Shown here: positions 1 through 60,758 of the stretch, piece after piece
How positions within the stretch are numbered: position 1 is the stretch's first letter
Layout: each line of letters starts with the position of its first letter
DNA from: a virus
IMG/VR virus record: IMGVR_UViG_3300043607_000009
Coordinates: 1 to 64,000 of that record
Direction: 5' to 3' (one strand)
DNA length: 64,000 nt
The notes under the pieces: generated by a model
The model's input: the letters and a program-made list of their open reading frames with translations, nothing else
Databases searched by the model: none
Told to the model about the DNA's origin: nothing
Made by a program: the position numbers and the translations under genes

Positions 1-23
1 GTCGAACATCATGACCGCCTCGC
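1..23. repeat. Terminal redundancy, left copy
   Basis: These 23 bases are identical to bases 63978-64000. A gene starting at ATG 63976 reads through the joint without a break, so the overlap indicates a circular or circularly permuted molecule of about 63,977 bp, or a window drawn past the end of a circular assembly. It is too short to be a physical terminal repeat of the virion. Confidence 0.9.
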
Positions 24-548
24 GCCAGTGGGCCACTCGTCCGTCGGACGAGCGCTTCTTGGATCTCAACGAGCTTCACAGCGCGACTCACGAGTCCCGT
101 AGGCTCTCCGCCGCGAAGGTTCTCTCGCATCGCGACCTTCCTCTTCGACTACGTGTGCATGAACCGCATCGTGTGGGGCGCCACGCAGTACAGCGAGATC
201 AAGATCCGCCACACGTCTGGCGCTCCGGCTCGCTTCATCGAAGAAGTTCTGCCGGCGATCAAGCGCTACGCGGCCGGCTCGGACACGTCGATCAAGGAGG
301 CGATCGAGAAGGCGCGCGCCGCGCGGATCGGCGACGAAGACAAGGTGCGTGACTTCCTCGCGAAGCGCTTCACGCGCACGCAGGCGGGCGCGATCATGAT
401 GGCCCACAAGAACGAGGAAGGCCGTCCGATCGAATCGCTCTGGGACGCGGCGGTCGGCGCCACTGCTTACGCCCGCGGCGTGCAGTACCAGAACGAGCGC
501 GTGGACCTCGAGCGCGAGGCCGGCAAGATCTTGGATCTCGCCAAGTAA
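1..548 (+). pseudogene. DUF932 family protein, internally deleted
   Basis: The gene begins at ATG 63976 and enters the window in the frame of the ATG at base 11. Its first ~38 residues (MTASRQWATRPSDER and on) look like the amino end of DUF932 / phage-plasmid-like proteins (TIGR03299). From about base 130 to the stop at 546-548, a different frame encodes the family's usual carboxyl end (FLFDYVC, IVWGAT, ARGVQYQNERVD). The middle of a normally ~300-residue protein is missing and the ends are joined out of frame somewhere between 105 and 140. It therefore looks like a remnant, unless the gap is an assembly error. The family's function is unknown. A rho-independent terminator follows directly. 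Confidence 0.75.
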
Positions 549-559
549 CTTCGGAGCAC

Positions 560-590
560 GGCGCGGGGGACTTACACCCCGCGCCTTTTT
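560..590 (+). terminator. Rho-independent terminator after DUF932 gene
   Basis: A perfect 9-bp GC stem, GGCGCGGGG (560-568) with CCCCGCGCC (577-585), encloses an 8-nt loop and is followed by TTTTT (586-590). It starts 12 nt after the DUF932 stop. It separates that gene from the next start at 610. Confidence 0.9.
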
Positions 591-609
591 CCGCAACCGG
601 AGAACACCC

Positions 610-824
610 ATGAGCAAGAACAAATACCACATGTCCAAGGCCGCCGCGCTGCGCGTCGCGTGCGAGATCGCCACGAGCGGCGAGACCTCGAGTACGCGAG
701 CGCCGTGGACGAGCTCCGCGCCAAGATCCGCGAGGCATACAACGCTTGCCGCGACGCGGGCCTCAAGTGCATTCGTGCGATCGGCGCCGAGCTCCGCGAG
801 AAGCTCCGCGGCTTGGAGCACTAA
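610..824 (+). pseudogene. Small helical protein, frameshifted
   Basis: ATG 610 has a GGAG ribosome binding site about 8 nt upstream. The first ~25 residues (MSKNKYHMSKAAALRV) are in one frame. From about 684 the protein-like, GC3-rich reading (EYASAVDELRAKIREAY up to the TAA at 822-824) is in the frame one base back. A single base appears to be missing near 680-690. I see no slippery heptamer that would favour programmed slippage, so decay or a sequencing error is more likely. Intact, it would be a ~71-residue, mostly helical protein of unknown role. Confidence 0.55.
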
Positions 825-825
825 G

Positions 826-1095
826 ATGCCAATCAGTTCCGGAGATCACGGTCCTTCGTACGAAGCTCCGCCGAAGTCGAGAGGCATAGAGCGCGTGAAC
901 CCCGACCGCATCCTCAACCACGCAGGCGCAATCGGCTTGCTCTGCGAGTTGAGCACGCGCATCCGCCCGACTCTCGAGAAGCAAGACGACCTCGATTCGA
1001 TCGAGCGTTGCGTGGCCGACTACTGCAAGGTCACGGGCGGCAGCTACCGTCGCGTGCTCGATCGCATCGAGTACACGCCTCCGAGGCCACGGTAA
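826..1095 (+). CDS. Hypothetical protein, 89 aa
   Basis: ATG 826 follows the preceding TAA by one base, and the stop TAA (1093-1095) overlaps the ATG of the next gene (TAATG), which suggests translational coupling. The protein starts MPISSGDHGPSYEAPP and then has a helical region (ILNHAGAIGLLCELSTRI, SIERCVADYCK). I do not recognise a domain. The same frame is open further upstream, but that part lies in the preceding gene, so the ATG after its stop is the better start. Confidence 0.65.
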   Translation: MPISSGDHGPSYEAPPKSRGIERVNPDRILNHAGAIGLLCELSTRIRPTLEKQDDLDSIERCVADYCKVTGGSYRRVLDRIEYTPPRPR

Positions 1096-1547
1096 TGGTC
1101 CGCGCACGCTACAAGGTCGATGCGAGTCCGCTCTTCCGCGCGATGAAGCGCGCGATCCGCAACGAAGTTGCCGAGCCCTTCTTCCGGATCGGGCCGTTCC
1201 AATTCACGTGGTGGGAATCGGCGCGCATGCGCGAGGGCGGGCGCATCCGCAAGGTGCCGATGATCCACGTCGCGTATCAAGGCAAGTACGTAGGCCGCAT
1301 CGAAGCCGATCGCTACCTCGCCGGTCCGAACGTATTCGACACCAAGGAGGCACGGCGCGAAGTCGCCGAGCAGATCAAGTTGATTGTCACGCACCCGCGG
1401 AAAGCGGCGGCAGCGGAAGCCGCAGTTACGCTCAAGGCGAGCGGCTCTCCGCGGTGTGCGTGTTGTGGCCGGCCGCTCGCTGGCGTCGAGGATCGACGCA
1501 GCGGCGTCGGCATGATGTGCTCGCGCAAGTGGGGTTTCGCAAGATGA
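1095..1547 (+). CDS. Zinc-binding hypothetical protein, 150 aa
   Basis: The start overlaps the previous stop (TAATG) and the stop TGA overlaps the following ATG (ATGA). The body (WWESARMREGGRIRKVPMIH; VAYQGKYVGRIEADRYL) is hydrophilic. The carboxyl end carries a treble-clef-like motif: CACCGRPL, then about 13 residues, then GVGMMC. Small phage proteins of the DUF6011 type carry the same CxxCGRxL..GxGxxC pattern. A structural zinc site is therefore likely, but no enzymatic role can be given. Confidence 0.7.
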   Translation: MVRARYKVDASPLFRAMKRAIRNEVAEPFFRIGPFQFTWWESARMREGGRIRKVPMIHVAYQGKYVGRIEADRYLAGPNVFDTKEARREVAEQIKLIVTHPRKAAAAEAAVTLKASGSPRCACCGRPLAGVEDRRSGVGMMCSRKWGFAR

Positions 1548-1696
1548 CCGAGCGTTGGCGCGTAATCCGAGGTTACGACTATGAGGTATCTGATCTCGGG
1601 CGCATTCGACATCATGTTACGAAACATGTCATATCCGATTTCGAGGGCATGTGCTCATGCTTGTTCAGTGGGCACAACTGCGAAGAATTAGCGTAG
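1544..1696 (+). pseudogene. NUMOD4 fragment of an HNH homing endonuclease
   Basis: ATG 1544 overlaps the preceding TGA. The first 20 residues (ERWRVIRGYDYEVSDLGRIR) match the NUMOD4 DNA-binding module found at the amino end of phage HNH homing endonucleases; the intact gene at 29878-30372 has the same module. The reading frame stops after 50 residues and no HNH catalytic region follows, so this is a truncated relic. It lies just upstream of the tRNA-like gene and the intein-bearing polymerase. Confidence 0.7.
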
Positions 1697-1771
1697 GCAC
1701 GCTACTTACTCGTTTTCGACGAGGCTGGAATACCAGACGCGCTTTGACGCAATCTGTCCAGAAGAAATCGC

Positions 1772-1875
1772 GCCGCGGTGGTGGAAACCGGAAGACACAC
1801 CCCATTTAACCAAGCGTGGGGCGAGGAGTGGGCGACCCCCTCGAATTGCACGTTCGAATCGTGCACGCGGCACCA
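1772..1875 (+). tRNA. tRNA-like gene, class II, probably Leu (UAA), irregular
   Basis: The T arm is perfect (GCACG TTCGAAT CGTGC, 1848-1864), the CCA end is encoded (1873-1875), and acceptor GCCGCG (1772-1777) pairs with CGCGGC (1866-1871). The D arm is GTG/CAC (1781-1783, 1796-1798) with GG in the loop. A long variable arm CGAGG...CCTCG (1822-1843) marks it as class II. The anticodon stem CCCCA/TGGGG (1800-1804, 1817-1821) encloses 12 nt (TTTAACCAAGCG) instead of 7; if read from the 5' side the anticodon is UAA. Position 7 of the acceptor is mismatched. It may be a decaying or unusual tRNA. TTTTT follows at 1876. Confidence 0.6.
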
Positions 1876-1888
1876 TTTTTCTAGGAAC

Positions 1889-1917
1889 GATTTACTCGGG
1901 AACGGTTTTGCTATAAC
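1889..1917 (+). promoter_or_regulatory. Putative extended -10 promoter for the polymerase gene
   Basis: TGCTATAAC (1909-1917) gives an extended -10 element. The -35 region is weak (TTTACT at 1891 with a short 15-bp spacer, or GATTTA at 1889 with 17 bp). It lies between the tRNA-like gene and the GTG at 1954, which has a purine-rich ribosome binding site (GGGGAAGGG, 1942-1950). Confidence 0.45.
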
Positions 1918-1953
1918 GTACCCCTCCCATACAAGAACAACGGGGAAGGGTTC

Positions 1954-4900
1954 GTGGGGAGCCTCAACCCGCACTGCCAGAAGTGCCCGCTACACGAGAC
2001 TAGCGACATCGTATGCCTTGCTGGCGAAGGTCGGCGCGGCGCCGAGGTCATGTTCGTTGGCGAAGCGCCCGGTGCGGAAGAAGAACGCGAAGAGCGACCG
2101 TTCGTCGGGCCGTCCGGCCGGCTGCTCCGTGATCAACTCAAACGCGCCGGCATCAAAGACGTGTTCATCACGAACACGGTCCGTTGCGTCGTGGGATCAA
2201 CGGCGGTAAGTTTTCCATCGCCCCCCACGGTAGGGTACAAACGCTATTACCAGGGCCTTCTCTTGACGATCAAGACGGCCTCGGGCAACGAGCTGGCCGT
2301 CACACCGAATCACCCGATACTCACGGCGCGTGGATGGGTTCGCGCTGAGGAGTTGCGCGGTCGAGATGACTACGTTCACTGCTTCGGGCGTAACTCTGGT
2401 ACAACGATTCAGCCACAAGTAGACGACCGCCCACTTCTCGCGGAGCAAGTATTCAGTACGCTTGCGCTTAGAAGCAGCTCGTGCCGGGTTGTTGGTCATC
2501 AAATGGATTTCCACGGCGACGGAACCGATCGCGAAGTCGAGATTGTAAGGGCCGACAGCGCATTGTTCTCGGAACACGACTTTTCTCTTGCGCAGTTCAG
2601 AAGCGAACCAACGATCAGTAGCTCCTTGTTTGCCCCTCGTCTGTTCGGCCGTTATTGCGCTAGTCTGCGCTCGTTTTTTGATCGCCTCAGGGCTCCACAG
2701 CCGTCGATTAGCATAGGCAGCTTGGCGCGCTGGCTCCGAGAGGGCCACACGTTCTTCAGTCGTGAGCTTGCTCCAATATTTTTTCAGAGTGCGCCCTGTA
2801 TCTGCGACCAAAGCAGCATCATGGTAGCTGCGGGCGTTGTAGCCGGCAGCCTTCAATCTAGCGGCAACAGTTCCATCACTAACCCCGAGAGCAACGGCGA
2901 TCTGGCAGAAAGATTCTCCGCGCTTAAAGCGCCCGACCAAATCATCGAGATCCAATCGCAGTTTTGGGCGGGCCATGTCTACAACTTCTCAACGCCGGGG
3001 GGGTGGTACATCTCGAACGGTATTATAACGCACAACTGCCGGCCACCGAGCAACCGACAACCGACTGCGACCGAGATCTCCGCGTGTCGTGGCTACCTCG
3101 CGGATGAGATCAAGCGTGTCAAGCCCAAGTATGTTGTGGCGCTTGGCGCAGTAGCCGCGAAGACGCTCTTCGTTGGCAAGTCCAAGGTCACGCAACACCA
3201 CGGCGCCTTCGTGGAGCCCACTGACAAGCACCCCTACCGCGGCTACGTCGCTTACCATCCTGCCTTCACGCTGCGCGACCCTAGCAAGTTGCCGGCGTTC
3301 ACTCAGGATCTAAAGCGATTGGCCCGTGCGGTCCACGGTGAAGAGCGAGCTCCCGAGGCGCCGTGGTCCCTACTGCGGCGCGGCAACCTGCGGAAGTTTC
3401 TGCGCGAGTTCATCGAAGCCCCGGAGTTCTCGTTCGACCTCGAGACCTCGGGCTACTTCATGCACGGGCCAGGCGGCTACATCAACGCGATGTCGATCGA
3501 CCTCCCGCACCGCACGTGGGTCGTGCCGTGCATGGACTACGATCCAATCAACAAGCGGCACAAGCACACTCCGTGGCGCCGCGGGAACGCCTTCCTCGAG
3601 CTCGTGAAGCTGTTGGTCAAGATCCAACGTGAGACTGCAAAGCGCTGCGTTGGCCACAACGGCAAGTTCGACAACCTCTGGCTCCGCCGTCTGACTGGCT
3701 TCTGGTTCAAGCTCACGTTCGACACGATGCTTGCGAGTCACACGCTGGACGAGAATCGCGAGCACGATCTCAAAACGCTCGCGCGCACCATCCTCGACGC
3801 GCCCGAGTACGACCTCACGCCAAAAGAGAAGAAGGGAATAGTTGTACCGCGCAAGCTCTACCGCTACGGCGCTTACGACGCCTATTACACGCGCAAGCTC
3901 AAGGAGATCTTCTACCGCGAGCTCCAAGACGAACCGGAGCTCCACCGGCTGTATCACAAGCTGATCATCCGCGTCGCGCGCTCGATGGAGAACCTCGAGA
4001 TGGTCGGCAAGACCGTGAATCTCGAGAAGTGGGACGCCACCACGATCGACGTGCAGTCCGAAGTCATCTTGCTCGAGATCGAGCTCAACAAGATGGTAGG
4101 AAAGACCATTAACTGGAATTCGCCGCCGCAGATCGGCCGGCTCTTGTTCGATGAGCTCGGACTCGAGGTCACGCAGTGGACCGACGGAGGGGCTCCGTCC
4201 ACGAGCGAAGAAGCGCTCTTCGATCTGCGCGACGAACACCCCGTCGTGAACAAGCTGCTCGAGTACCGCGAGCGCACCAAGTTCTTGGGCACATACCTGC
4301 ACGGTCTGCGCGAGTATATGGTGGGGCAAACGCTCTACATCCCCTACAAGATCCACGGCACGGTCGGCGGCCGCTACAGTTCGCCAATTCATTCGATTCC
4401 ACGCGACGGCACCATTCGCAACCTCGTCGAAGCACCGGACGGTTGGGATCTCTTCGTGGCCGACATCTCACAGGCGGAGCTCCGCTTCGCTGCACACTTG
4501 TCCGGCGATCTCGAGATGCGTCGCTGCTTCAAGAACAATATCGACATCCACTGGCGCACGCTCATGTACACGCTCGGCCAAGGCTACATCGGCACCGAAG
4601 AGTACGTGGATAACGTGTGGGGCACGGTGAAAGCTCTCGGCAAGCGTGTCAACTCTATCGGCGATGCGTGCGAGGTCTTGCTGCTCGCCGGCCACGATCG
4701 CTGCACCGAGATTTGGAAGGGCTGGAAGGAAGGTCGCTACCGCGCCAAGGCGCTGAACTTTGGGTTTTGCATCGCAGAAGGGCAACGTGTACTGACTCAC
4801 GTTGGTCTAGTACCAATCGAACAAGTGCAGGACTGGCACCTTGTATGGGATGGCGTAGAGTGGGTATCCCATAAAGGAGTTCAATTTAATGGCTACCAAG

Positions 4901-6102
4901 AAGTCATCGAATATCAAGGGCTCAAAGCAACCCCAGAACACGAAGTCTGGACGATGGGGGGGCAGAGGCTTCCCCTTTGGAGAGCGGCATCCGAAGGCCA
5001 TAGACTTGAGAAAACGGGAGCGGGACTTACAGCGTTTCCCTCTAGGGACACTAGTCGTTTTAGTGGGAACGATTCGTCGCGTCGAGAGATCGCGGTTAGT
5101 GATCGACGTTACTTGCACAGCATGCGAGAAACGACAGACGCTTCTCGTAGACAATTTATGGGCGAAGAAGACAACCAACTGTCGCTGTCAAAGAGCCAAG
5201 AAATACTTCGATCCTCGATCCGAAACTCTTGGAATGCGCTACGACACCATGATTCAGCGCTGCGAACGCGATACGCACGTTTCATCGAATCGCTACAAAG
5301 GGCGCGGAATCCAAGTGCTCTTCAAATCGCGAGAGGAGTTTATCCGTTGGGCGTTGAAGAAGTACCCCAACAGCGATTTCAAAGAATTGGTTTTCGATCG
5401 ACGGAACAACGACGGGAATTACTCCAAGGGCAATCTTCGCCTGACAACCTACAGCGTCAACAATCGAAACAGATTAAGGTCTACGATCTAATCGACGCGG
5501 GGCCACGTCACCGTTTCACAGTAGAAGACTGTCTCGTACACAACTGCTACGGGATGTTTGAAGACAAGTTCATCGAGCTTGCCAAGACCGACTACGAGTG
5601 GGAGCCCTCATGGGACGAAGCGCACTCGATGCGCCAAGGCTTCTTCGATCTCTACAGCGGACTCCCCAAGTGGCACGACAAAGAGAAGAAGATCGTGCGC
5701 AATAACGGCTTCGCACGGATCTTGTCGGGGCGTCGGCGCCGGCTGCCGGCGATCTACTCCAAGGAGAAGTGGATACGCGCAGAAGCCGAGCGCCAAGCGG
5801 TCAACATCCGCGTGCAGGGATTCATCGGCGACTACAAGTCCATGGCGCTCGTCGAAGCGGACGATCGGCTGAATCCGCACGAAGCGAAGCTCGTCGGCGA
5901 ACACCACGACGCGCTCCTCGGGATCGTGCGCAAGGACTGCCACGATGTGGTGCTGCCAGTGGTGCGCCAGATCATGAAGGCCCCCGCGCTGCTCCGCGCG
6001 TTCAACATCAAGCTCGACATCCCCATGAATTCGGACATCGAGCTCGGACGATGGGGCGCAGGCGTCAAATATCAAGACCCAGAACAAAGGAGAGCTGCGT
6101 GA
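1954..6102 (+). CDS. Uracil-DNA glycosylase / 3'-5' exonuclease / family A DNA polymerase with two inteins
   Basis: The 1,382-residue precursor splices to about 839 residues. Residues 1-77 and 362-460 form a family 4-like uracil-DNA glycosylase (CQKCPLH cysteines, GEAPGAEEE, PFVGPSGRLL, TNTVR joined to CRPPSNRQPT, HPAF). Residues ~490-620 are a DnaQ-like exonuclease (FDLET, GHNGKFDN). The polymerase domain has motif A (DISQAELR, ~836), motif B (RAKALNFGF, split by intein 2) and motif C (EHHDAL, ~1317). Inteins occupy residues 78-361 and 939-1197. It is presumably the replicative polymerase, and the fused glycosylase suggests that uracil in DNA is recognised during replication. The start is GTG 1954. 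The gene ends in a GTGA overlap with the next one. Confidence 0.92.
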   Translation: MGSLNPHCQKCPLHETSDIVCLAGEGRRGAEVMFVGEAPGAEEEREERPFVGPSGRLLRDQLKRAGIKDVFITNTVRCVVGSTAVSFPSPPTVGYKRYYQGLLLTIKTASGNELAVTPNHPILTARGWVRAEELRGRDDYVHCFGRNSGTTIQPQVDDRPLLAEQVFSTLALRSSSCRVVGHQMDFHGDGTDREVEIVRADSALFSEHDFSLAQFRSEPTISSSLFAPRLFGRYCASLRSFFDRLRAPQPSISIGSLARWLREGHTFFSRELAPIFFQSAPCICDQSSIMVAAGVVAGSLQSSGNSSITNPESNGDLAERFSALKAPDQIIEIQSQFWAGHVYNFSTPGGWYISNGIITHNCRPPSNRQPTATEISACRGYLADEIKRVKPKYVVALGAVAAKTLFVGKSKVTQHHGAFVEPTDKHPYRGYVAYHPAFTLRDPSKLPAFTQDLKRLARAVHGEERAPEAPWSLLRRGNLRKFLREFIEAPEFSFDLETSGYFMHGPGGYINAMSIDLPHRTWVVPCMDYDPINKRHKHTPWRRGNAFLELVKLLVKIQRETAKRCVGHNGKFDNLWLRRLTGFWFKLTFDTMLASHTLDENREHDLKTLARTILDAPEYDLTPKEKKGIVVPRKLYRYGAYDAYYTRKLKEIFYRELQDEPELHRLYHKLIIRVARSMENLEMVGKTVNLEKWDATTIDVQSEVILLEIELNKMVGKTINWNSPPQIGRLLFDELGLEVTQWTDGGAPSTSEEALFDLRDEHPVVNKLLEYRERTKFLGTYLHGLREYMVGQTLYIPYKIHGTVGGRYSSPIHSIPRDGTIRNLVEAPDGWDLFVADISQAELRFAAHLSGDLEMRRCFKNNIDIHWRTLMYTLGQGYIGTEEYVDNVWGTVKALGKRVNSIGDACEVLLLAGHDRCTEIWKGWKEGRYRAKALNFGFCIAEGQRVLTHVGLVPIEQVQDWHLVWDGVEWVSHKGVQFNGYQEVIEYQGLKATPEHEVWTMGGQRLPLWRAASEGHRLEKTGAGLTAFPSRDTSRFSGNDSSRREIAVSDRRYLHSMRETTDASRRQFMGEEDNQLSLSKSQEILRSSIRNSWNALRHHDSALRTRYARFIESLQRARNPSALQIARGVYPLGVEEVPQQRFQRIGFRSTEQRRELLQGQSSPDNLQRQQSKQIKVYDLIDAGPRHRFTVEDCLVHNCYGMFEDKFIELAKTDYEWEPSWDEAHSMRQGFFDLYSGLPKWHDKEKKIVRNNGFARILSGRRRRLPAIYSKEKWIRAEAERQAVNIRVQGFIGDYKSMALVEADDRLNPHEAKLVGEHHDALLGIVRKDCHDVVLPVVRQIMKAPALLRAFNIKLDIPMNSDIELGRWGAGVKYQDPEQRRAA
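2185..3036 (+). other. Intein 1, in the glycosylase domain, with an antisense endonuclease gene
   Basis: The 284-residue insertion interrupts the glycosylase motif exactly between TNTVR and CRPPSNR. Block A is CVVGSTAV, block B GNELAVTPNHPILTARGWV, block F GHVYNFST and block G NGIITHN followed by Cys, as in standard Cys1/Asn/Cys+1 inteins. Between the splicing halves (about 2400-2915) the intein frame encodes no LAGLIDADG or HNH motif; instead, the complementary strand there encodes an endonuclease-like protein (2197-2976). The host frame remains open throughout. The codon boundaries of the two strands coincide. Confidence 0.9.
2197..2976 (-). CDS. EDxHD/Vsr-like homing endonuclease nested antisense in intein 1
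   Basis: This 259-residue protein reads opposite to the polymerase. Residues ~8-45 form a helix-turn-helix (DDLVGRFKRGESFCQIAVAL, GVSDGTVAARLKAAG). Residues ~115-190 resemble the PD-(D/E)XK fold of Vsr-like EDxHD homing endonucleases (FREQCAVGPYNLDFAI, VAVEIH, a basic helix, then WAVVYLWLNR). That family was described as free-standing genes lying between the halves of split-intein genes. Here the gene lies wholly within one intein, and its last ~60 codons are complementary to intein blocks A and B, so the true functional end may be earlier. The ribosome binding site is weak (GAGAAG upstream of the ATG at 2976). The protein is likely real; its activity is untested. Confidence 0.75.
   Translation of the reverse strand: MARPKLRLDLDDLVGRFKRGESFCQIAVALGVSDGTVAARLKAAGYNARSYHDAALVADTGRTLKKYWSKLTTEERVALSEPARQAAYANRRLWSPEAIKKRAQTSAITAEQTRGKQGATDRWFASELRKRKVVFREQCAVGPYNLDFAIGSVAVEIHLMTNNPARAASKRKRTEYLLREKWAVVYLWLNRCTRVTPEAVNVVISTAQLLSANPSTRREYRVIRCDGQLVARGRLDRQEKALVIAFVPYRGGRWKTYRR
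4768..5544 (+). other. Intein 2, in polymerase motif B, with an out-of-frame endonuclease gene
   Basis: The 259-residue intein begins at Cys (CIAEGQRVLT, block A) directly after NFGF of polymerase motif B. Block B is LKATPEHEVWTMGG, block F IKVYDLIDAGPRHRF and block G EDCLVHN followed by Cys (CYGM). Motif B is essential, so the polymerase needs splicing to be active. The middle (~4960-5470) has no endonuclease motif in the intein frame, but the +1 frame of the same strand encodes an HNH-type endonuclease (4889-5491) with its own ribosome binding site. The intein frame has no stop through this stretch. Confidence 0.9.
4889..5491 (+). CDS. HNH-type homing endonuclease nested in the +1 frame of intein 2
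   Basis: The 200-residue protein starts at ATG 4889 behind a strong site, AAGGAG (4874-4879), 9 nt upstream, so it can be translated independently of the polymerase. It has a Cys-rich region (CTACEKR, NCRCQR) followed by the conserved core of a phage HNH-like family (RYDTMIQRCERD, YKGRGIQVLFKSREEFIRW, FDRRNNDGNYSKGNLRL). The same core occurs at 42064-42582 and 60069-60758. It lies entirely inside the intein DNA and shares it in another frame. It presumably mobilises the intein. Confidence 0.82.
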   Translation: MATKKSSNIKGSKQPQNTKSGRWGGRGFPFGERHPKAIDLRKRERDLQRFPLGTLVVLVGTIRRVERSRLVIDVTCTACEKRQTLLVDNLWAKKTTNCRCQRAKKYFDPRSETLGMRYDTMIQRCERDTHVSSNRYKGRGIQVLFKSREEFIRWALKKYPNSDFKELVFDRRNNDGNYSKGNLRLTTYSVNNRNRLRSTI

Positions 6103-6380
6103 GAGTCAATCTATACAGAGAAGAAATTACCGACCGCATGAAGATCGTGCGCAAAAGTACCGAAGCTGGCGACTTCATTGGCGTGCGCCTCTTCATCGAA
6201 ACCCCCGTGACACTTCACAACAAGCCGCAAGCAACGCAGATTGTGCGCGGGCCATACATGCGCACTGACGGGGATGACGATTCAAGCGCCGTGACCTTCT
6301 GGGCACTCGCGTCTGATACTCGAAAGCTCCGTGAGATGTTCTACAAGGCATGGAAGCTCCTCGAAGAAGAAGGCGCGTGA
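6099..6380 (+). CDS. Hypothetical protein, 93 aa
   Basis: GTG 6099 overlaps the polymerase stop (GTGA), which suggests coupling. AAAGGAGAGC lies just upstream. The protein (VNLYREEITDRMKIVRKS; TFWALASDTRKLREMFYKAW) has mixed strands and a helical carboxyl end. I do not recognise a family. Its coupling to the polymerase hints at an accessory role in replication, which is only inference. Confidence 0.65.
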   Translation: MRVNLYREEITDRMKIVRKSTEAGDFIGVRLFIETPVTLHNKPQATQIVRGPYMRTDGDDDSSAVTFWALASDTRKLREMFYKAWKLLEEEGA

Positions 6381-6381
6381 C

Positions 6382-6858
6382 TTGGGGTTTCCACGAACCG
6401 GAGCATGCGTAGATTGTTCGTCTTCTATACGACAGACATGCGGACGGCACCTGTACTGCGTCAAGTGCAAGTACAAGCGCCGGCTCAGAGCTCAATGGCG
6501 TTGGCGAGTCAGAACTGGTTCTATCAAAGACCCAACGAGGGGCGAGCCGCGCAAGAATCCGAAGAACTACCGCGGGGCGAAGAACCCCAACTGGCGTGGC
6601 GGCGGCATAGACTGGCAGCAACGACAGTTCAGAAAGAAGCGCTGCGATCGTTGCAAAAGTAAAAAGAAATTAGAGCTTCATCACAAAGACCGAAACCGAA
6701 GCAACTGGAAACCGAGTAACTTGGAGACGCTCTGCGAGAGTTGTCATCGTGACGAGCATCTCCCGTCCCGAGTCAAAGCAATCAAAAGTGCTGCTTCTCG
6801 AGGGCGCTACAGGAAAAACCTATGGCTGAACGCAATCACACATCTCAAAGCGAGATAA
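6382..6858 (+). CDS. HNH endonuclease (group I homing type)
   Basis: The protein has two amino-terminal cysteine pairs (CVDC, CVKC) and a classic HNH core: CDRCKSKKKLELHHKDRNRS, then WKPSNLETLCESCHRDEHLP. This is the family's metal-binding Cys2/His-His-Asn arrangement. The start is uncertain: TTG 6382, immediately after the previous stop, is used here; the frame is also open upstream inside the previous gene. The 3' end overlaps the next gene by 37 nt. Base composition is lower in GC than in the neighbours, as expected of a mobile insertion. Confidence 0.75.
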   Translation: MGFPRTGACVDCSSSIRQTCGRHLYCVKCKYKRRLRAQWRWRVRTGSIKDPTRGEPRKNPKNYRGAKNPNWRGGGIDWQQRQFRKKRCDRCKSKKKLELHHKDRNRSNWKPSNLETLCESCHRDEHLPSRVKAIKSAASRGRYRKNLWLNAITHLKAR

Positions 6859-7835
6859 CTCTAGGGCGACGCTGTAAAAGAGCGTGGAAGTACCGTTATC
6901 GCGATCGACTCCGCCGCAAACGGCCGTTCCGTGCGCCACTGATCGGCACCATCCTGCACGAGATGCTCGATCACTACGTGCGGGCGACGAACGACCCAAA
7001 GTTCGAGAGCGACCCGTGGAAGGTGTTCGCCAAGTACGAGAAGAAATACAGCGAGCTTTTCCGCGAAGAGCGCGAAGAGTACGGCGACATCCCGGCGACC
7101 GTGGAGGCCGTGTTCGAAGGCTACCTGCGACGCTGGAAGAACGACGATCTCATCTACGAATCGACCGAGGTCGAGATCGAAGCGGAGCTCATGAAGGGCG
7201 TCGCGCTGCGCTGCAAGCTGGACAAGATCGTTACGCAGCGCAAGAGCGGACTTCGGTTCCTCACTGATCACAAGTTCCATGCACGCATCCCCGACGCGCA
7301 GGATCGCTTTGCCGACATCCAAACGTTGCTGTATTTCTGGGCGTGGAATCTTACGCACTCGAAGGAGGATCGGCTCGCCGGCATCATCTGGGATTACGGC
7401 CGCATGAAGGCGCCCGCGATACCAGAGCTCTTGAAGGGGGGGGAGCTCACTCGTCGCTCGAACATCGACACTGATTCGTTCACATACATGCGCACTATCC
7501 GCGACAACGGTTTGAACGCACGCGACTACAAGGATATGCTCGAGTCCCTTCGGGGGAAGGAAAATACATTCTTCGAGCGCGTGACGCTTCCGTCACCGTC
7601 CAAAGCGTTGGTCGAGTCCGTCGTTGAAGATGCCAGGATCACGGTGCGTGAGCTCCGTGCGCTTCCTGACTACACACCACGCGATGGCATGTCCATGTTC
7701 AACTGCCGCGGATGCGAGTTTCGCGCCGTCTGTGAAGCGGAGCTTCGTGGGCTGGACTTCGAGTTCGTAAAAAAGCGCGACTACGTGATCCGTGACGAAG
7801 AGGAGAGGGAATTTGCCAACCAGGGGGCGGATTAG
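6822..7835 (+). CDS. PD-(D/E)XK nuclease, RecB/Cas4-like
   Basis: This is a 337-residue member of the PD-(D/E)XK superfamily (PDDEXK_1 type). Visible are a Cys near the amino end (RRCKRAWKY), GTILHEMLDHYV, the catalytic block GVALRCKLDKIV...FLTDHKF and a carboxyl-terminal cysteine cluster (CRGCEFRAVC). Together with the early Cys, this could hold an iron-sulfur cluster as in Cas4/AddB-type nucleases. It probably acts as an exonuclease or flap processor with the recombination genes immediately downstream. The ribosome binding site AGGAAAA precedes ATG 6822. Confidence 0.85.
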   Translation: MAERNHTSQSEITLGRRCKRAWKYRYRDRLRRKRPFRAPLIGTILHEMLDHYVRATNDPKFESDPWKVFAKYEKKYSELFREEREEYGDIPATVEAVFEGYLRRWKNDDLIYESTEVEIEAELMKGVALRCKLDKIVTQRKSGLRFLTDHKFHARIPDAQDRFADIQTLLYFWAWNLTHSKEDRLAGIIWDYGRMKAPAIPELLKGGELTRRSNIDTDSFTYMRTIRDNGLNARDYKDMLESLRGKENTFFERVTLPSPSKALVESVVEDARITVRELRALPDYTPRDGMSMFNCRGCEFRAVCEAELRGLDFEFVKKRDYVIRDEEEREFANQGAD

Positions 7836-8034
7836 ACGTAGAGGGCTATTCAAGTGGTACGCGGAAGTTGACGTGTACCACATCGACTACTCGACTAAGC
7901 CTCCGCGTCGGACTGACAGGCTTGCTCTCACAGCAATAGAAGGCCCGTTCTGGCGAAAACGTTTAGCCGAACGTGCTTCAGAGGAACTTGCAAAACATCA
8001 AGCTGCCTACGAATGGCGATTGGGAGTCATATGA
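7813..8034 (+). CDS. Hypothetical basic protein, 73 aa
   Basis: TTG 7813 is preferred because AGGAGAGGGA lies immediately upstream (7801-7810); GTG 7792 in the same frame is an alternative. The protein is basic (RIRRRGLFKWYAEVDVYHID) with a helical carboxyl half. Its stop overlaps ATG 8031 of the Sak4-like gene (ATGA), placing it in the recombination operon. The role is unknown. Confidence 0.6.
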   Translation: MPTRGRIRRRGLFKWYAEVDVYHIDYSTKPPRRTDRLALTAIEGPFWRKRLAERASEELAKHQAAYEWRLGVI

Positions 8035-8858
8035 AAAAAATCATCCGCAAAAAAGAAACGACCAAGCTCCCGCGCGTCGTGCGCAACATCTCCGACGTGG
8101 ACGACTTGAGTGAGAACCACGTGGCGCTCTTCTACGGTAAAGCCGGCCGCGGTAAGACCAAGACGGCCGCGTCGTATCCGAAGCCACTCTTGCTCCTCGA
8201 CATCAACAACGAGCGCGGCACCAAGACGGTGAAGACCGTGAAAGGGCTACGGATCGCACGCATCACGACGTGGGATGACTTCATCGACCTCTACTGGTGG
8301 CTGCGCGAGGGCCAGGACTACAAGTCCGTCGTACTTGATCAGATCACCGGCCTCCAAGATCTCGGCATGACCATGATCCGCGACAAGCACGGCAAGAGCG
8401 ACGACGACCTATTCACGCAGAAGAATTGGGGTGAGCTCTCCGGCGAGCTCAAGACGTGGCTCCAAAACTACCGCGAGCTCTCGGACCGCTACAACATCGT
8501 GTTCCTCGCGCACGAGCGGATCTTCGACGAAGACCAAGATGCCGAAGCTAGTGATCTTTCCCCGTCCGTCGGCGCGCGCGTGATGCCGAGCGTTGGCTCC
8601 TTCATCGACGGCGCCTGCGACATCATCGGCCAGAGCTTCGTGCACATGCGCAAAATCAAAGAGGGCGGCAAGACCGTGCACGATCCGCAATACTGCATGC
8701 GCATCGGACCGCACCCGAGTTACATCACCAAGATCAGGCGCCCGCCCGAAGCGGGGCCGCTCCCGCAATATATCGTCAACCCTTCCTACCAAAAGCTAGT
8801 TGCCATCGAGAATGGTGAGGAAGCATCTCAACCCTCGAAGCTGAAAAGGAGAAAGTAA
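8031..8858 (+). CDS. Sak4-like / AAA_24 recombination ATPase
   Basis: This is a 275-residue RecA-fold ATPase. It shows Walker A GKAGRGKTKT (residues ~38-47), a Walker B-like strand (YKSVVLDQITGL) and NIVFLAHERI. Phage AAA_24 proteins of this size include Sak4, which promotes single-strand annealing together with a DUF669-type ssDNA-binding partner. The partner candidate follows immediately (TAATG overlap). The start ATG 8031 is chosen over an upstream ATG because it overlaps the previous stop. Confidence 0.85.
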   Translation: MKKIIRKKETTKLPRVVRNISDVDDLSENHVALFYGKAGRGKTKTAASYPKPLLLLDINNERGTKTVKTVKGLRIARITTWDDFIDLYWWLREGQDYKSVVLDQITGLQDLGMTMIRDKHGKSDDDLFTQKNWGELSGELKTWLQNYRELSDRYNIVFLAHERIFDEDQDAEASDLSPSVGARVMPSVGSFIDGACDIIGQSFVHMRKIKEGGKTVHDPQYCMRIGPHPSYITKIRRPPEAGPLPQYIVNPSYQKLVAIENGEEASQPSKLKRRK

Positions 8859-9700
8859 TGGCAGTTCAGTCCCGCAGATCTTCAACCAAGAAGACGAGCA
8901 AACGCCGCGCGTCTCGATCGGTGGACTTCACCGATGTCGAGAGCGGTGGTCGAACCATCACCGATGGTTGGGCACGCGGCCGCGTCAAGGCCGCAGTCTG
9001 GAAGGAGTCGCAGTCGTCGGACAACGAGATGATCGAAGTCCAGTGGATGGCAGAGCGTGGCAAGGAGAAGGCGACCGTGTACGACAACATGGTCAACACG
9101 CCAAGTGCGCTGTGGAAGATGAAGACCATGCTCGAGGCGTGTGGCATCGAAGTGCCCGAAGGCGCGATGGATGTCGATGCCGGTGAGCTCGTCGATCTCG
9201 AGTGCGACATCGAAATCGTGAACGAAGAGTTCGACAACCGCGATCGGCCGCGGATCGTCGGCTTTGCCGAGACCGGCACGCACACCGAGGATGGCGGCTC
9301 GCCCAAGGAAGGCGCCGAAGACCCCGAGGCTGAGGAAGAGGAAGAGGCTCCGAAGCGCAAGCGCAAGACCTCCGAGAAGGAGGAGGAAGAGGAGGAGCCG
9401 GAAGAAGAGCCCGAAGAAGAGGAAGAAGAGGAGGAGAAACCTTCCCGCTCCAAGAAGCGTCGGACCCCCAAGGAAGAGGAGGAAGAAGAGCCGGAAGAAG
9501 AGGAAGAGGAGGAAGAAGAGGAGGAGGCGCCCAAAAAGAAAACCAAGTCCAAGATCCGCGCGGGCGCGAAGGTGAGTTTTCGCGATGGAAAAAAGACGCT
9601 CCGCGGCGTCGTCAAGTCGATCGAAGACGATCAAGTGCTCGTCGTGATGCCGAACAAGGACGAGTACGAGATGTCTTCAGAAGAGGTAACGTTGGCTTAA
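8858..9700 (+). CDS. DUF669-like ssDNA-binding protein with long acidic linker
   Basis: The 280-residue protein starts in a TAATG overlap with the Sak4-like gene. Residues ~25-140 (DGWARGRVKAAVWKESQSSD, TPSALWKMKTMLEACGIEVP) match the pattern of DUF669 proteins, phage ssDNA-binding partners of Sak4-like ATPases. Residues ~150-225 are an extreme low-complexity stretch of Glu with Lys/Pro, encoded by purine-only runs of GAAGAGGAGG type. Residues ~230-280 form a small beta domain resembling KOW/SH3 (AGAKVSFRDGKKTLRGVV). Acidic tails of SSBs commonly bind partners; this one is unusually long. Confidence 0.7.
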   Translation: MAVQSRRSSTKKTSKRRASRSVDFTDVESGGRTITDGWARGRVKAAVWKESQSSDNEMIEVQWMAERGKEKATVYDNMVNTPSALWKMKTMLEACGIEVPEGAMDVDAGELVDLECDIEIVNEEFDNRDRPRIVGFAETGTHTEDGGSPKEGAEDPEAEEEEEAPKRKRKTSEKEEEEEEPEEEPEEEEEEEEKPSRSKKRRTPKEEEEEEPEEEEEEEEEEEAPKKKTKSKIRAGAKVSFRDGKKTLRGVVKSIEDDQVLVVMPNKDEYEMSSEEVTLA

Positions 9701-9707
9701 CGGTATT

Positions 9708-10181
9708 ATGGGGCCTAAACCCAGATCCTTAAAAGTTCGGTTCTGGGCGAAGGTCCGCAAAACGCCAACATGTTGGCTTTGGACGGCGAGTCTGGCTCAT
9801 GGCTACGGTCAGATCTCGATTCGTCGCTCCAAAGCCGATTTTGCACATCGAGTCTCTTGGCAACTTCATTACGGGGAAATTCCCGAGGGGCTTTGTGTAT
9901 TGCACAAGTGCGATACCCCTAAATGCGTTCGACCAGAACATTTGTTCTTAGGCACACGAGCCGAGAACGTTTGGGACTGCCAACGCAAGGGTAGAATTCG
10001 GAGCGGGGGTGTTCAAGGCGAGAAAAATCACAACGCTAAACTAACGTCTATATCCGTTAGATACCTACGAAAAGAAATAGCCAAAGGTAGCACAATTAGC
10101 TCTCTTGCGAAGGAATTGCAAGTTGATTGGAACGCAATTAAAAGCGCAGCAACAAGGCGTACATGGAAGCACGTCGCATGA
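9708..10181 (+). CDS. HNH endonuclease with C-terminal HTH
   Basis: The 157-residue protein has an HNH_3-type core: CWLWTASLAHGYGQI, AHRVSWQLHYGEIPEG, LHKCDTPKCVRPEHLFLG. A helix-turn-helix follows (LAKELQVDWNAIKSAATR). The gene at 31457-31939 is a paralogue with the same core and tail layout. It sits between the ssDNA-binding and helicase genes, overlaps the helicase start and is AT-richer than either, as expected for a free-standing homing endonuclease. Confidence 0.85.
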   Translation: MGPKPRSLKVRFWAKVRKTPTCWLWTASLAHGYGQISIRRSKADFAHRVSWQLHYGEIPEGLCVLHKCDTPKCVRPEHLFLGTRAENVWDCQRKGRIRSGGVQGEKNHNAKLTSISVRYLRKEIAKGSTISSLAKELQVDWNAIKSAATRRTWKHVA

Positions 10182-11548
10182 TCCTAACGAAGCTGCGCAA
10201 GAATCAAAAAGAAGCGGTCGCTAAAGCGCTCAAGTACTACGGCTTTGCGATTTATTCACAACAGCGTGTGGGGAAATCTTTGGTCGCGCTTGCTATTGCA
10301 GACGAACGCAAGCCCGACATTTTATTTGTAATCTGCCCGAAGAAGGCGATCCAAGTCTGGCGCAAACAGCTAAAGGAACATCTCAAGATAGATTGGAAGT
10401 GCTCGGTCATCATCGTGCACTACGAGATGCTCTCCCGCGACGCGAAGGATCGCCGATGGTACAGACACAAGTTCCGTCATGAATGGCCCGACAAGACGAC
10501 CATGATCATCGTGGACGAAGGACATCGCATCAAACGCCGTGGCTCGATGCAGTCGCGCATGGTTCGTTCGCTCGGAATAATGTCCACGTGGCGTCTCCTA
10601 CTGAGTGGTACGCCGCTCGGCCAAGGCCGCGAAGACGTGTGGGCGCAGTTCGATTTCCTCGCGCCGGGGCTGCTCGAGTTCGAGTACGAAGACTTCCAAG
10701 ACGAATATCTCAAGCTCGGCGGCTACAAGAAGCGAGAGGTCGTCGGCTACAAGAACGTCGAGAAGTTCGACGCGATCTTTCACTCCCGATCGTTCCGGAT
10801 CACGCTCCGTGAAGCACAGATCGAGGCCGGCAAGAAGCCTTACCGTGTGCTGCGGCGGAAAGTCGAATTCGATTTGAAGCCCGAGACGCGCGTGATCTAC
10901 GACGAGCTCGAGAAGGAGCTTCGTGTCGTGGTGCGCAAGCGCAAGGTGAGCACGCCCCTCCTCATGACGCTCGTGCAGAAGCTACAACAAATCGCGGGCG
11001 GCTTCGTGATCCATACCGAGCAAGTTTACGACGAAGAGACCGGTGAGCCCAAGCTCACGCCCAAGGGCCATCCGGTCATGATCGAGGAGATCTTGACGGT
11101 CGGCCGCGAGAAGCTCGTGAAGCTTGGCCAACTCTTGGCCCTCGACGCCGTGTTTCGCACCGAAAAGTTCGTGATCTGCGCACGCTACACCCACGAGCTC
11201 GAGCGGATTGGGATACTCCTCGATCGTATGGGCTACACGTGGAAGCTCGTCTCCGGAGCCGGAGCCTTCGACGGCGAGTTCAACACCGATGCCGTGCTGT
11301 TACAGATCCAGATTGCCGAGGCGATCGACCTCGCGTTGGCGCCGAACTATATCTTCTACTCGTGGAATCATTCCTACATCAACTACGAGCAATCCAAATT
11401 CCGCGTGCTGAGCTTCGACACTAAGCTCGTGCGCTACTACTACCTGATCGCGCGTGACACCGTGGACGTGGACATCTACCACGTCGTAGCTGAGAAGATG
11501 AAGCTCTCGACGTACGTGTGTGACACGTACCGACGAAAAGCCGCGTGA
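10163..11548 (+). CDS. SNF2/DEAD-like superfamily 2 helicase
   Basis: The 461-residue protein has motif I QQRVGKSLVALAIA (~residue 35), motif Ia-like FVICPKKAIQVWRKQL, motif II IIVDEGHRIKRR, motif III LLLSGTPLGQG, and later a motif VI-like end (YEQSKFRVLSFDTK). This is the layout of phage SNF2-type ATPases acting in replication or recombination. Motif VI is not a canonical QxxGRxxR. ATG 10178 is an alternative start. The stop overlaps GTG 11545 (GTGA). Confidence 0.85.
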   Translation: MEARRMILTKLRKNQKEAVAKALKYYGFAIYSQQRVGKSLVALAIADERKPDILFVICPKKAIQVWRKQLKEHLKIDWKCSVIIVHYEMLSRDAKDRRWYRHKFRHEWPDKTTMIIVDEGHRIKRRGSMQSRMVRSLGIMSTWRLLLSGTPLGQGREDVWAQFDFLAPGLLEFEYEDFQDEYLKLGGYKKREVVGYKNVEKFDAIFHSRSFRITLREAQIEAGKKPYRVLRRKVEFDLKPETRVIYDELEKELRVVVRKRKVSTPLLMTLVQKLQQIAGGFVIHTEQVYDEETGEPKLTPKGHPVMIEEILTVGREKLVKLGQLLALDAVFRTEKFVICARYTHELERIGILLDRMGYTWKLVSGAGAFDGEFNTDAVLLQIQIAEAIDLALAPNYIFYSWNHSYINYEQSKFRVLSFDTKLVRYYYLIARDTVDVDIYHVVAEKMKLSTYVCDTYRRKAA

Positions 11549-11748
11549 TCACGGTCCAGAAAGCCTTGGTGGCGCTCCGCAAGGAGTTTGAGCAGCCGAT
11601 GCCACCGCCGAGAATTCCACCAGAGGAGAAAAAACGTCGTGTCAGAAAAAAGCGCAAAACCAAAGGTAAAGCTCATAAGCCTCGCGGATCTCATAAAGAG
11701 GTCGGCCCTCGACATCACGCCACACGCCGCAAGATTGCGGATGATTAA
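11545..11748 (+). CDS. Hypothetical basic protein, 67 aa
   Basis: GTG 11545 overlaps the helicase stop. The first ~40 residues (VQKALVALRKEFEQP, a Pro-rich linker, then Lys/Arg clusters) are protein-like. The last ~30 residues share DNA with the next gene in another frame, which suggests that one of the two is marginal. No domain is recognised. Confidence 0.4.
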   Translation: MITVQKALVALRKEFEQPMPPPRIPPEEKKRRVRKKRKTKGKAHKPRGSHKEVGPRHHATRRKIADD

Positions 11749-11839
11749 GCGTGGCATCAAACGCCCCGGCAAACAGTGGCGCTTCAAGCCGGGTTCGTCG
11801 GTGCTCGCGGCCGCAGCTAAGGCGATCAAGACTCCGTGA
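11639..11839 (+). CDS. Small HTH-like DNA-binding protein, 66 aa
   Basis: GTG 11639 lies 9 nt after AGAGGAG. Residues ~12-50 (LISLADLIKRSALDITPHAA, RLRMIKRGIKRPGKQWRF) have the look of an excisionase/MerR-type helix-turn-helix followed by a wing-like basic strand. The stop TGA overlaps GTG 11836. A small accessory DNA-binding protein is likely, but I cannot assign a target. Confidence 0.6.
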   Translation: MSEKSAKPKVKLISLADLIKRSALDITPHAARLRMIKRGIKRPGKQWRFKPGSSVLAAAAKAIKTP

Positions 11840-12264
11840 GCGAGAAGACGTTGTGGGGGTATTTGCGTGGGCTCGTGCCGATCGGCAAGTACACCCGCAT
11901 CGAGACCGGCGAAACAGGCCCCGGAGTCCCGGACGTGTACTACCGGCTGCAAGCGAAGAAGAACGGTTGGATGGAGCTCAAGGATTCGCGCACACCGAAC
12001 GCCGAGATCCCATTCAAGACCGAAGACGACGGCCTCCACACCACACAACTCGATTGGATTCGCGATGAAGTGCGAATGGGCGGCACGGTGTGGATCGTCG
12101 CGCGTGCCGGCACGCTCGTCTATTGGGTGCCGGGGCGTTTGGCCCCTCGCTTCAACGGCAATCCCAACCTGAGGCGGATCTCGTCGTGGGTGTTGAACGG
12201 TCGCACCATCCGCACCGAAGACACGTCCGCGATCCGTCGCATGCTCTGCGGAGAACTACAGTGA
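11836..12264 (+). CDS. VRR-NUC-like nuclease
   Basis: The 142-residue protein has a compact PD-(D/E)XK signature: GPGVPDVYYRL, then GWMELKDSR, then a helix reaching QLDWIRDEVRMGGTVWIVAR. This resembles phage VRR-NUC/Hjc-like resolvase proteins that finish replication or recombination operons. It starts at GTG 11836, which overlaps the previous stop, and ends overlapping GTG 12261. Confidence 0.75.
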   Translation: MSEKTLWGYLRGLVPIGKYTRIETGETGPGVPDVYYRLQAKKNGWMELKDSRTPNAEIPFKTEDDGLHTTQLDWIRDEVRMGGTVWIVARAGTLVYWVPGRLAPRFNGNPNLRRISSWVLNGRTIRTEDTSAIRRMLCGELQ

Positions 12265-60068: not shown

Positions 60069-60758
60069 ATGAACGACGACATCAGCACGTTTCAGCTCAT
60101 GGAGCTGTTCCCGGACGAGATCGACGCGCGCGCGTACCTCGAAAAACGCCGATGGGGTGACGCGCCGTGGTGCCCGCGGTGCAGCGACGAACGGATCACG
60201 ACGCGCGGCGGAGATCGTGTCGGCTATTACCGCTGCGGCGCGTGCTCGCTCGAATTCACCGTGCGCAGCGGGACGCTGATGGACCGCAGCCATGTGCCGT
60301 TGGCCGGCTGGCTCGCGGCTCTGATGTATCGCGATCAGTCGATCTCTGACATGGCGCGCGCGCTCGACGTCACTCGCAACTCTGCTGCCAGGCTGCGCGA
60401 TGTGCTGACTGCCGCTCCCACGGCGCTCGACGCGGCCGTTGGCAAACTCGTCGAGACCGTGGCGACGCCGCGCGGGACGCCTGCCCCGCCGAAGCGCTAC
60501 CGTGTAATGCGCGATCCGGTGCTCAGCGTTTGGAGCGGCATGCTTTCGCGCTGTACGAATCCGCGCAGCTCCTCGTATCGCAACTACGGCGGCAGGGGGA
60601 TCACCGTCTGTAAGCGCTGGCGAGTGTTTGCGCATTTCCGCAGCGATATGAGTCCGCGACCGCCGGGTACGACGCTCGATCGCTACCCGAACAACGACGG
60701 TGACTACGAGCCGGGCAACTGCCGCTGGATCAGCGGTGGAAGTACCGCGGCGTGGTGA
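60069..60758 (+). CDS. IS1595-type zinc ribbon/HTH fused to an HNH endonuclease core
   Basis: Residues 1-130 match the amino half of an IS1595 transposase: ISTFQLMELFPDEIDARAYL, CPRC...CGAC zinc ribbon, TVRSGTLMDRSHVPLAGWLA, a helix-turn-helix. The same elements occur in the transposase at 62181. Instead of the DDE domain, residues ~150-225 are a phage HNH-like core (SVWSGMLSRCTNPRSSSYRN, YGGRGITVCKRW, LDRYPNNDGDYEPGNCRWIS). A tail in the next frame (60731-60847; KYRGVVTTPNGPLFVFEE) may be the remnant of a former carboxyl end. It may be a new targeting nuclease or an endonuclease that invaded a domesticated transposase. Confidence 0.7.
   Translation: MNDDISTFQLMELFPDEIDARAYLEKRRWGDAPWCPRCSDERITTRGGDRVGYYRCGACSLEFTVRSGTLMDRSHVPLAGWLAALMYRDQSISDMARALDVTRNSAARLRDVLTAAPTALDAAVGKLVETVATPRGTPAPPKRYRVMRDPVLSVWSGMLSRCTNPRSSSYRNYGGRGITVCKRWRVFAHFRSDMSPRPPGTTLDRYPNNDGDYEPGNCRWISGGSTAAW

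Follow-up and report, generated by a model that had tools for sequence, protein, structure and literature searches.

The DNA analysed here (the window) comprises 64,000 nucleotides, positions 1 to 64,000 of the IMG/VR virus record IMGVR_UViG_3300043607_000009, which has 64,682 bases. Its plus strand carries a host ORF in which a uracil-DNA glycosylase (UDG) domain and a family A DNA polymerase are fused (Pfam E-values: UDG, 3e-26; DNA_pol_A, 4.3e-53; DNA_pol_A_exo1, 3.1e-12) and which contains two inteins, the second of which, intein 2, is overlapped by an endonuclease gene in the +1 frame. A UDG-like part and DNA polymerase I also share a single ORF in the related loci L006 and L011. The features considered are as follows.

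1954–6102, plus strand: host ORF, UDG domain and family A DNA polymerase fused, with two inteins (Pfam).
2185–3036, plus strand: intein 1 (bounds predicted), within the glycosylase portion of the host ORF (motif; Pfam Intein_splicing E 5.5e-6, below the cut-off).
2197–2976, minus strand: antisense ORF in intein 1, 259 aa, helix–turn–helix and DUF559-like (tblastn relatives, substitution test).
4768–5544, plus strand: intein 2, 259 aa, interrupting the polymerase at NFGF|CYGM (splicing motifs; relatives L006, L007, L008, L013 and L014; AlphaFold; Foldseek).
4768–4797, plus strand: splicing block A, with Cys1.
4874–4879, plus strand: AAGGAG, Shine–Dalgarno-like, ending 9 nt before the ATG at 4889 (motif).
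4889–5491, plus strand: endonuclease gene, 200 aa, +1 relative to the polymerase, PHROG 374 (ORF, profile match, AlphaFold mean pLDDT 86).
4927–4953, plus strand: splicing block B, ATPEHEVWT; the endonuclease ORF overlaps it with its 5′ part (motif).
5114–5188, plus strand: four-Cys (zinc-type) motif of the endonuclease, C76, C79, C98 and C100 (conservation).
5294–5311, plus strand: YKGRGI motif of the endonuclease (Y136, R139 and G140 invariant, 52/52).
5390–5440, plus strand: HNH-like core of the endonuclease, VFDRRNNDGNYSKGNLR, DR...Y...N (R171, Y178 and N182 invariant).
5479–5517, plus strand: splicing block F, VYDLIDAGPRHRF (motif).
5489–5491, plus strand: stop codon of the endonuclease gene, within host-frame block F (sequence).
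5533–5544, plus strand: splicing block G, LVHN, followed by Cys+1 (motif).

Intein 2 starts with Cys1 at 4768, its last Asn codon ends at 5544, and Cys+1 comes next. An earlier note on this DNA had placed an intein with standard splicing blocks at both ends here and had described the polymerase frame as open throughout; re-reading of the coordinates and of blocks A, B, F and G bore this out, and ORF 1954–6102 contained no stop across its whole length. The empty junction, given in that note as NFG|CYG, was corrected to NFGF|CYG. The attributes expected of an intein (Cys1, block B, terminal Asn, the +1 residue and one open frame with both exteins) were all found in intein 2. Thr55 and His58, which form the Thr-x-x-His signature of block B, were invariant among 42 aligned inteins, and Cys1, the terminal Asn and a C, S or T at position +1 were each present in 104/104 large inteins of the survey described below (phage set from the best 80 of 112 phage-side relatives, plus genome set). 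The host frame of intein 2 matched no Pfam family at E ≤ 1, PF14890 included.

The 200-codon gene that the earlier note had read in the +1 frame, with AAGGAG 9 nt before its ATG, was correct in frame, length and ribosome site. Its product belonged to PHROG 374 (HNH endonuclease; E 8.5e-20, residues 37–197) and also matched three further endonuclease families; it matched no Pfam family at E ≤ 1, and Pfam and NCBIfam scans of 52 endonucleases gave scattered weak matches at most. In these 52 aligned sequences, Cys76, Cys79, Cys98, Arg124, Tyr136, Arg139, Gly140, Tyr178 and Asn182 were invariant and Cys100 was kept in 51, and strict core motifs were present in 97/104 large inteins (phage set from the best 80 of 112, plus genome set). 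However, the position of the usual first His of the HNH motif was occupied by Arg171 in 52/52 sequences, and we thus class the endonuclease as HNH-like only; the "well-formed HNH-type core" of the earlier note is not a textbook HNH motif. The endonuclease profile aligned weakly to I-HmuI 67–122 (E 0.0074), with Arg171 opposite the D-H of I-HmuI, and still more weakly to PacI (E 0.33). PacI, too, has Asp-Arg at this position. A comparison of the A5 profile with PDB sequences gave nothing at E ≤ 0.01.

The AlphaFold model of the host frame of intein 2 showed pLDDT values of 95–98 at residues 1–90, 88–97 at residues 231–259 and below 50 for most of residues 101–207. In Foldseek, its best match was the Npu DnaE intein (4kl5; E 1.1e-3, probability 1.00), indicating a Hint fold, and the 50 matches listed were all inteins, intein-like domains or hedgehog autoprocessing domains. 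The endonuclease frame was modelled with pLDDT 90–96 over most of residues 41–190, but not confidently over its N-terminal 30 residues, where it overlaps block B. Foldseek with the endonuclease model gave no clear nuclease match in the PDB; VIA-align gave none either and re-aligns Foldseek's own list, so that absence there is not evidence. As the first splicing half of the host frame ends at about residue 90 and the endonuclease is confident from residue 41, the folded endonuclease probably begins about where that half ends, with the upstream start adding an overprinted tail. In these models, overlap with working splicing code is predicted for only the first ~40 endonuclease residues (block B region), the remaining host frame being a presumed unfolded, merely stop-free spacer.

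A viral-contig search with the first 71 intein residues as the query identified 112 relatives among 113 candidates, and the best 80 of the 112 were used. With the window, three loci found via the endonuclease and two GenBank phages, and after the removal of two duplicates (L012 and L059, from the same contigs as L006 and L007, respectively), these made up a phage set of 84 loci. Five lacked an intein end (L038, L042, L054 and L066 run off the contig; the host frame of L069 is broken), and the 79 inteins with both ends were reduced to 67 by collapsing 12 near-identical ones at 90% identity. The endonuclease was out of frame in all 59 non-redundant large inteins of this set (best 80 of 112), 54 in +1 and five in +2. 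Small inteins made up the remaining eight of the 67; six had no endonuclease gene and two retained a fragment (best 80 of 112). An independent scan of bacterial genomes yielded 65 loci, the rows of which were not collapsed; 60 were complete, and the five without an intein end comprised four contig ends and one broken frame (L119). In none of the 45 large inteins of this genome set was the endonuclease in frame (44 in +1 and one in +2), and none of its 15 small inteins had an endonuclease. Frame 0 was covered in the genome-set classification, with no match there, and the phage-set classification covered shifted frames only. The genome-set matches included Gardnerella, Anaerococcus, Peptoniphilus, Selenomonas, Streptococcus and Corynebacterium records.

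The host frame was open in 59/59 large phage-set (best 80 of 112) and 45/45 large genome-set inteins, both counts presupposing a complete host frame, with the broken loci L069 and L119 set aside. In those two loci the endonuclease is present and the host frame is broken before the C-terminus of the intein, as in a pseudogene, a sequencing error or a split form. Among 12 GenBank regions, nine carried the endonuclease gene (four in +1 and five in +2), and the remaining three comprised a small intein (L094), an intein without a match to the endonuclease profile (L098) and a region without an intein (L100). Among cultured phages, the HNH gene is in +1 in Caulobacter phage RW and in +2 in fPoEco01. 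The exteins of the 67 representatives mostly matched DNA polymerase A (49/67), and others matched helicase families, among them DEAD (14) and ResIII (13) (best 80 of 112). A distant blastn search of the polymerase region against phages gave no match. The comparison of relatives with and without the insert, proposed in the earlier note, was possible within the survey: L006, L007, L008 and L014 carry the insert, and L013 has a small intein of 129 aa without an endonuclease at the same NFGF|CYGM site. The polymerase of L011, 64% identical, lacks intein 2, reads SFGYIYGM and is the sole empty relative of the window polymerase. The further check of that note, on conservation of the frames, came out in favour of its reading, in that the +1 frame was kept and the host frame remained open. 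An annotation or assembly artefact was rejected because independent contigs and cultured phages share the layout. The architecture of intein 2, with an endonuclease hidden out of frame, is confirmed and general.

The comparison of substitutions in the two frames, also proposed in the earlier note, used eight disjoint pairs out of 24 pairs at 72–98.5% identity. The substitution rates at host positions 1, 2 and 3 were.142,.075 and.426 in the host-only 5′ part,.136,.066 and.207 in the block B overlap,.376,.172 and.132 in the endonuclease core, and.073,.033 and.500 in the tail. Selection therefore acts on the host frame in the 5′ part, on both frames in the overlap, on the endonuclease in the core and on the host frame again in the tail, and the comparison found both the purifying selection on the +1 frame (eight pairs pooled) and the host-frame selection in the splicing blocks that the note's reading calls for. 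Within the block B overlap, host third positions changed at half the host-only rate (Fisher P 4e-8). The +2 relatives followed this pattern as well: when EnJE6 was compared with EP23, the changes in the core numbered 17 at endonuclease position 2, 72 at position 3 and 34 at position 1.

Given the endonuclease proteins, approximately 496 host-frame stops were expected in the cores of the 59 large phage-set inteins (best 80 of 112) and none was observed, consistent with the claim of the earlier note that the intein frame was kept open. Endonuclease codons ending in T preceded AA, AG or GA in 0/2141 cases, compared to 1706/6483 elsewhere (best 80 of 112). Broken host frames could escape this count because a complete host frame was required; among the loci not cut by a contig end, the host frame was broken only in L069 of the 84 phage-set loci (best 80 of 112) and in L119 of the 65 genome-set loci. 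When the endonuclease codons of the window core were reshuffled with the protein fixed, 7.0 host-frame stops were expected compared to zero observed, and the host frame was open in 0/400 shuffles. A chance open frame was rejected on these counts.

The combined start and ribosome-site score of the window was matched in 0.5% of synonymous shuffles, and a start with a Shine–Dalgarno match was found in 54/59 phage-set (best 80 of 112) and 41/45 genome-set large inteins. The mean scores were 4.8 in the phage set (best 80 of 112) and 4.9 in the genome set, compared to 0.77 and 0.70, respectively, after synonymous shuffling, with shuffles that closed the endonuclease frame scored as zero; taken singly, only 28/59 (best 80 of 112) and 23/45 inteins reached P ≤ 0.05. 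In the commonest layout, the host residues K-E-V-I-T-Y-D/G are spelled to give a strong ribosome site and an ATG 9 nt on. The endonuclease thus appears, from these scores, to have its own translation start.

The trees of the splicing domain and the endonuclease co-varied (Mantel r 0.64; best of 999 permutations 0.255), suggesting that the two layers mostly travel together. Small inteins were scattered among large ones in the tree, many forks of which are weak. The small intein L039 keeps a remnant of the +1 endonuclease (GHYEPGNLRWTT), the small intein L072 keeps the zinc region, and in L174 the endonuclease frame is broken and the host frame is intact; such losses and remnants are a prediction of a homing cycle. 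Present-day small inteins, including L013 at the same polymerase site, look from their sequences like losses rather than ancestors predating an invasion. The proposal in the earlier note that a free-standing endonuclease gene invaded a mini-intein is supported, as free-standing phage relatives of the endonuclease, listed in Staphylococcus, Enterococcus and Vibrio phages, are consistent with such a gene invading an intein.

Intein DNA of the Jerseyvirus type was found in 166 phage records, 147 of them Salmonella (distant search), and the Jerseyvirus C-extein in 376, 315 of them Salmonella (near search). The polymerases of PHZ055 and skrot lack the intein and share 94% identity with the EnJE6 exteins. 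EnJE6 and FSL SP-101 shared 92.9% identity in the intein and 76.1% in the N-exteins, and FSL SP-101 (Salmonella, Jerseyvirus) and fPoEco01 (Escherichia coli Kagunavirus) shared 98.4% in the intein and 89.2% in the C-extein. These identities point to recent transfer of the intein between genera in the cultured relatives, phages of enterobacteria. The marks of a homing element, alleles with and without the insert together with horizontal transfer, were found for the Jersey/Kagunavirus relatives and not for the window contig itself.

We propose, as very probable, that intein 2 is a two-layer mobile element with a splicing domain in the polymerase frame and a separately translated homing endonuclease in the +1 frame. 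The polymerase frame would encode a small splicing domain with its halves joined by a long unfolded spacer, and the +1 frame a complete zinc-finger/HNH-like PHROG 374 endonuclease with its own ribosome binding site, which may be translated independently from the polymerase mRNA. The endonuclease would cut intein-free polymerase alleles at NFGF|CYG, and repair from an intein-bearing copy would install the intein. The polymerase precursor would excise the intein by protein splicing, and an insertion in a catalytic motif could thus be tolerated. Because a stop would kill the polymerase, selection would exclude host-frame stops across the endonuclease gene. The computed basis of this scenario comprises the architecture, its conservation, dual selection, stop avoidance, ribosome-site enrichment, the folds, and the alleles and transfer in cultured relatives, from which we infer splicing, separate translation, cutting and homing; confidence is high for the architecture and lower for the mechanism. 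In the most likely reading, homing is driven by an endonuclease with a translation start of its own, and splicing hides the insert; the sequence comparisons support the interpretation of intein 2 given in the earlier note.

The GenBank note "type I self-splicing intron" for gp38/gp39 of Sodalis phage SO-1 would suit a group I (RNA-splicing) intron with an endonuclease gene, in which the open host frame and the intein-like motifs are incidental. Such an intron is scarcely credible, since the sole Rfam matches at the gathering threshold in 18 loci including SO-1 were three small RNAs in L096, outside the intein, and positions 1–12000 of the window had no Rfam match at E ≤ 1; it was rejected on these scans, and the universal Cys1, terminal Asn and +1 residue (104/104; phage set from the best 80 of 112, plus genome set), host-frame selection in the splicing blocks and the predicted Hint fold speak against it as well. 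Programmed frameshifting from the host frame, producing an intein/endonuclease fusion without a start of its own, is quite improbable: the frames overlap on the same strand, as it requires, and nine of the 104 large inteins (phage set from the best 80 of 112) had no start with a ribosome-site match in the range scanned, but the other 95 had both, far above synonymous shuffles, and the existence of both +1 and +2 layouts means that two kinds of shift would be needed.

The endonuclease ORF might also be a passenger, a decaying or regulatory relic in a vertically inherited intein, and the remnants and losses in L039, L072 and L174 would fit this. We regard it as unlikely in view of the purifying selection on the endonuclease frame (eight pairs pooled), the strict core motifs in 97/104 large inteins (phage set from the best 80 of 112, plus genome set) and the recent transfer in enterobacterial phages. 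The two-layer element with a separately translated homing endonuclease is preferred over all three.

"Fractured genes", reportedly described by Dassa in 2009, are said to be split inteins whose halves are separated by an endonuclease gene that stands on its own. Intein 2 resembles them in that its endonuclease gene is independent of the intein polypeptide and differs in that the host gene and the intein form one open frame overlapping the endonuclease gene. In GenBank, the DNA polymerase genes of phage APSE-1 (P45/P46) and Sodalis phage SO-1 (gp38/gp39) each have an HNH gene annotated inside them; neither is described as an intein with an overlapping gene, and the SO-1 entry speaks of a type I intron. 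In Salmonella phage SS3e (L106), an HNH gene separates two annotated parts of the polymerase, and the intein match is 2 nt longer than the query. In canonical large inteins, the splicing domain is split by the endonuclease between blocks B and F of the same polypeptide (PMC6801210), whereas here a gene of its own, in a different frame, encodes the endonuclease, and the host-frame spacer is predicted to be unfolded.

The closest published case is the ShiLan domain (Arsenault, Gosselin and Gogarten 2025, PMC11855218), an insertion open in the host frame with an HNH endonuclease in another frame; its patchy distribution is interpreted as homing. According to that paper, the insert has neither a splicing domain nor a detectable ribosome site, and it is suggested to stay in the protein (PMC11855218). 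Intein 2 shares with it the open host frame, the HNH-type endonuclease in the other frame and the patchy distribution. It differs in that its host frame carries splicing blocks with a predicted Hint fold and in that a ribosome site is present. Intein 2 is not a ShiLan element because splicing blocks and AAGGAG are present, though it may work in a similar way. The same paper cites a 2025 preprint by Gosselin, Arsenault and Gogarten on actinobacteriophage inteins of "non-canonical architecture" with overlapping frames (PMC11855218), which may already cover part of this architecture; apart from what that preprint may contain, our searches of open-access literature turned up no description of an intein whose endonuclease is out of frame.

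The antisense ORF of intein 1 had relatives in 112 phage records (tblastn; best E 4e-21), and a viral-contig scan with it gave no tblastn relative among 11 candidates. In 9/9 fetched loci it lay opposite a host gene, always in the same phase, the host genes being mostly annotated as head-morphogenesis or minor capsid genes. In the antisense overlap, the host third positions lose their usual lead, and host position 1, which is the antisense third position, varied most in 6/6 pairs, a sign of selection on the antisense frame in these pairs. The match to DUF559 (E 0.0016) was below the cut-off, and the function of the antisense ORF is therefore less sure. Judging from these comparisons, hidden intein endonucleases likely come in a second kind, encoded antisense, to which this ORF would belong. 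PHROG 15127 matched intein 1 (E 4.8e-28) and may partly describe a shadow frame. The antisense ATG is the reverse strand of a His codon in the intein motif GHVYN/DL, and GAGG stands upstream of the antisense start in 4/6 relatives. In the capsid-gene inteins L108–L116, a conserved host motif, DFHGDG..GEVEVV, lies opposite the antisense motif AVEVH. Salmonella virus VSe103 (H190, H264; L115) has both a +2 HNH-type intein in polA and the antisense type in a capsid-region gene.

Taken more widely, these loci probably represent overprinted inteins as a widespread class, present in phages as well as in bacterial genomes: their homing endonuclease would be separately translated from the +1, +2 or, in a second family, antisense frame, intein motifs would double as ribosome site and start, and many "large" inteins with unexplained middles would be small inteins with a hidden gene. 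Annotation would have overlooked them because the host frame stays open. If so, the two halves of an intein are decoupled, and the splicing polypeptide could stay as it is when the endonuclease is expressed, lost or replaced, the dose of the endonuclease being set by translation and not by splicing. The middles of many annotated large inteins, and the profile motifs derived from them, may then be shadows of another frame. Overprinted inteins would also provide a natural dual-coding system with a built-in control in the small inteins at the same site, and as cultured phages carry both alleles, homing by an overlapping gene is directly testable.

Two further HNH-type ORFs lie near the polymerase on the plus strand of the window, at 6331–6858 (Pfam HNH, E 2.7e-4) and 9708–10181 (HNH_3, E 9.8e-16). 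Furthermore, the product of positions 60390–60731, also on the plus strand, is distantly related to the hidden endonuclease (30% identity, E 4.5e-5).
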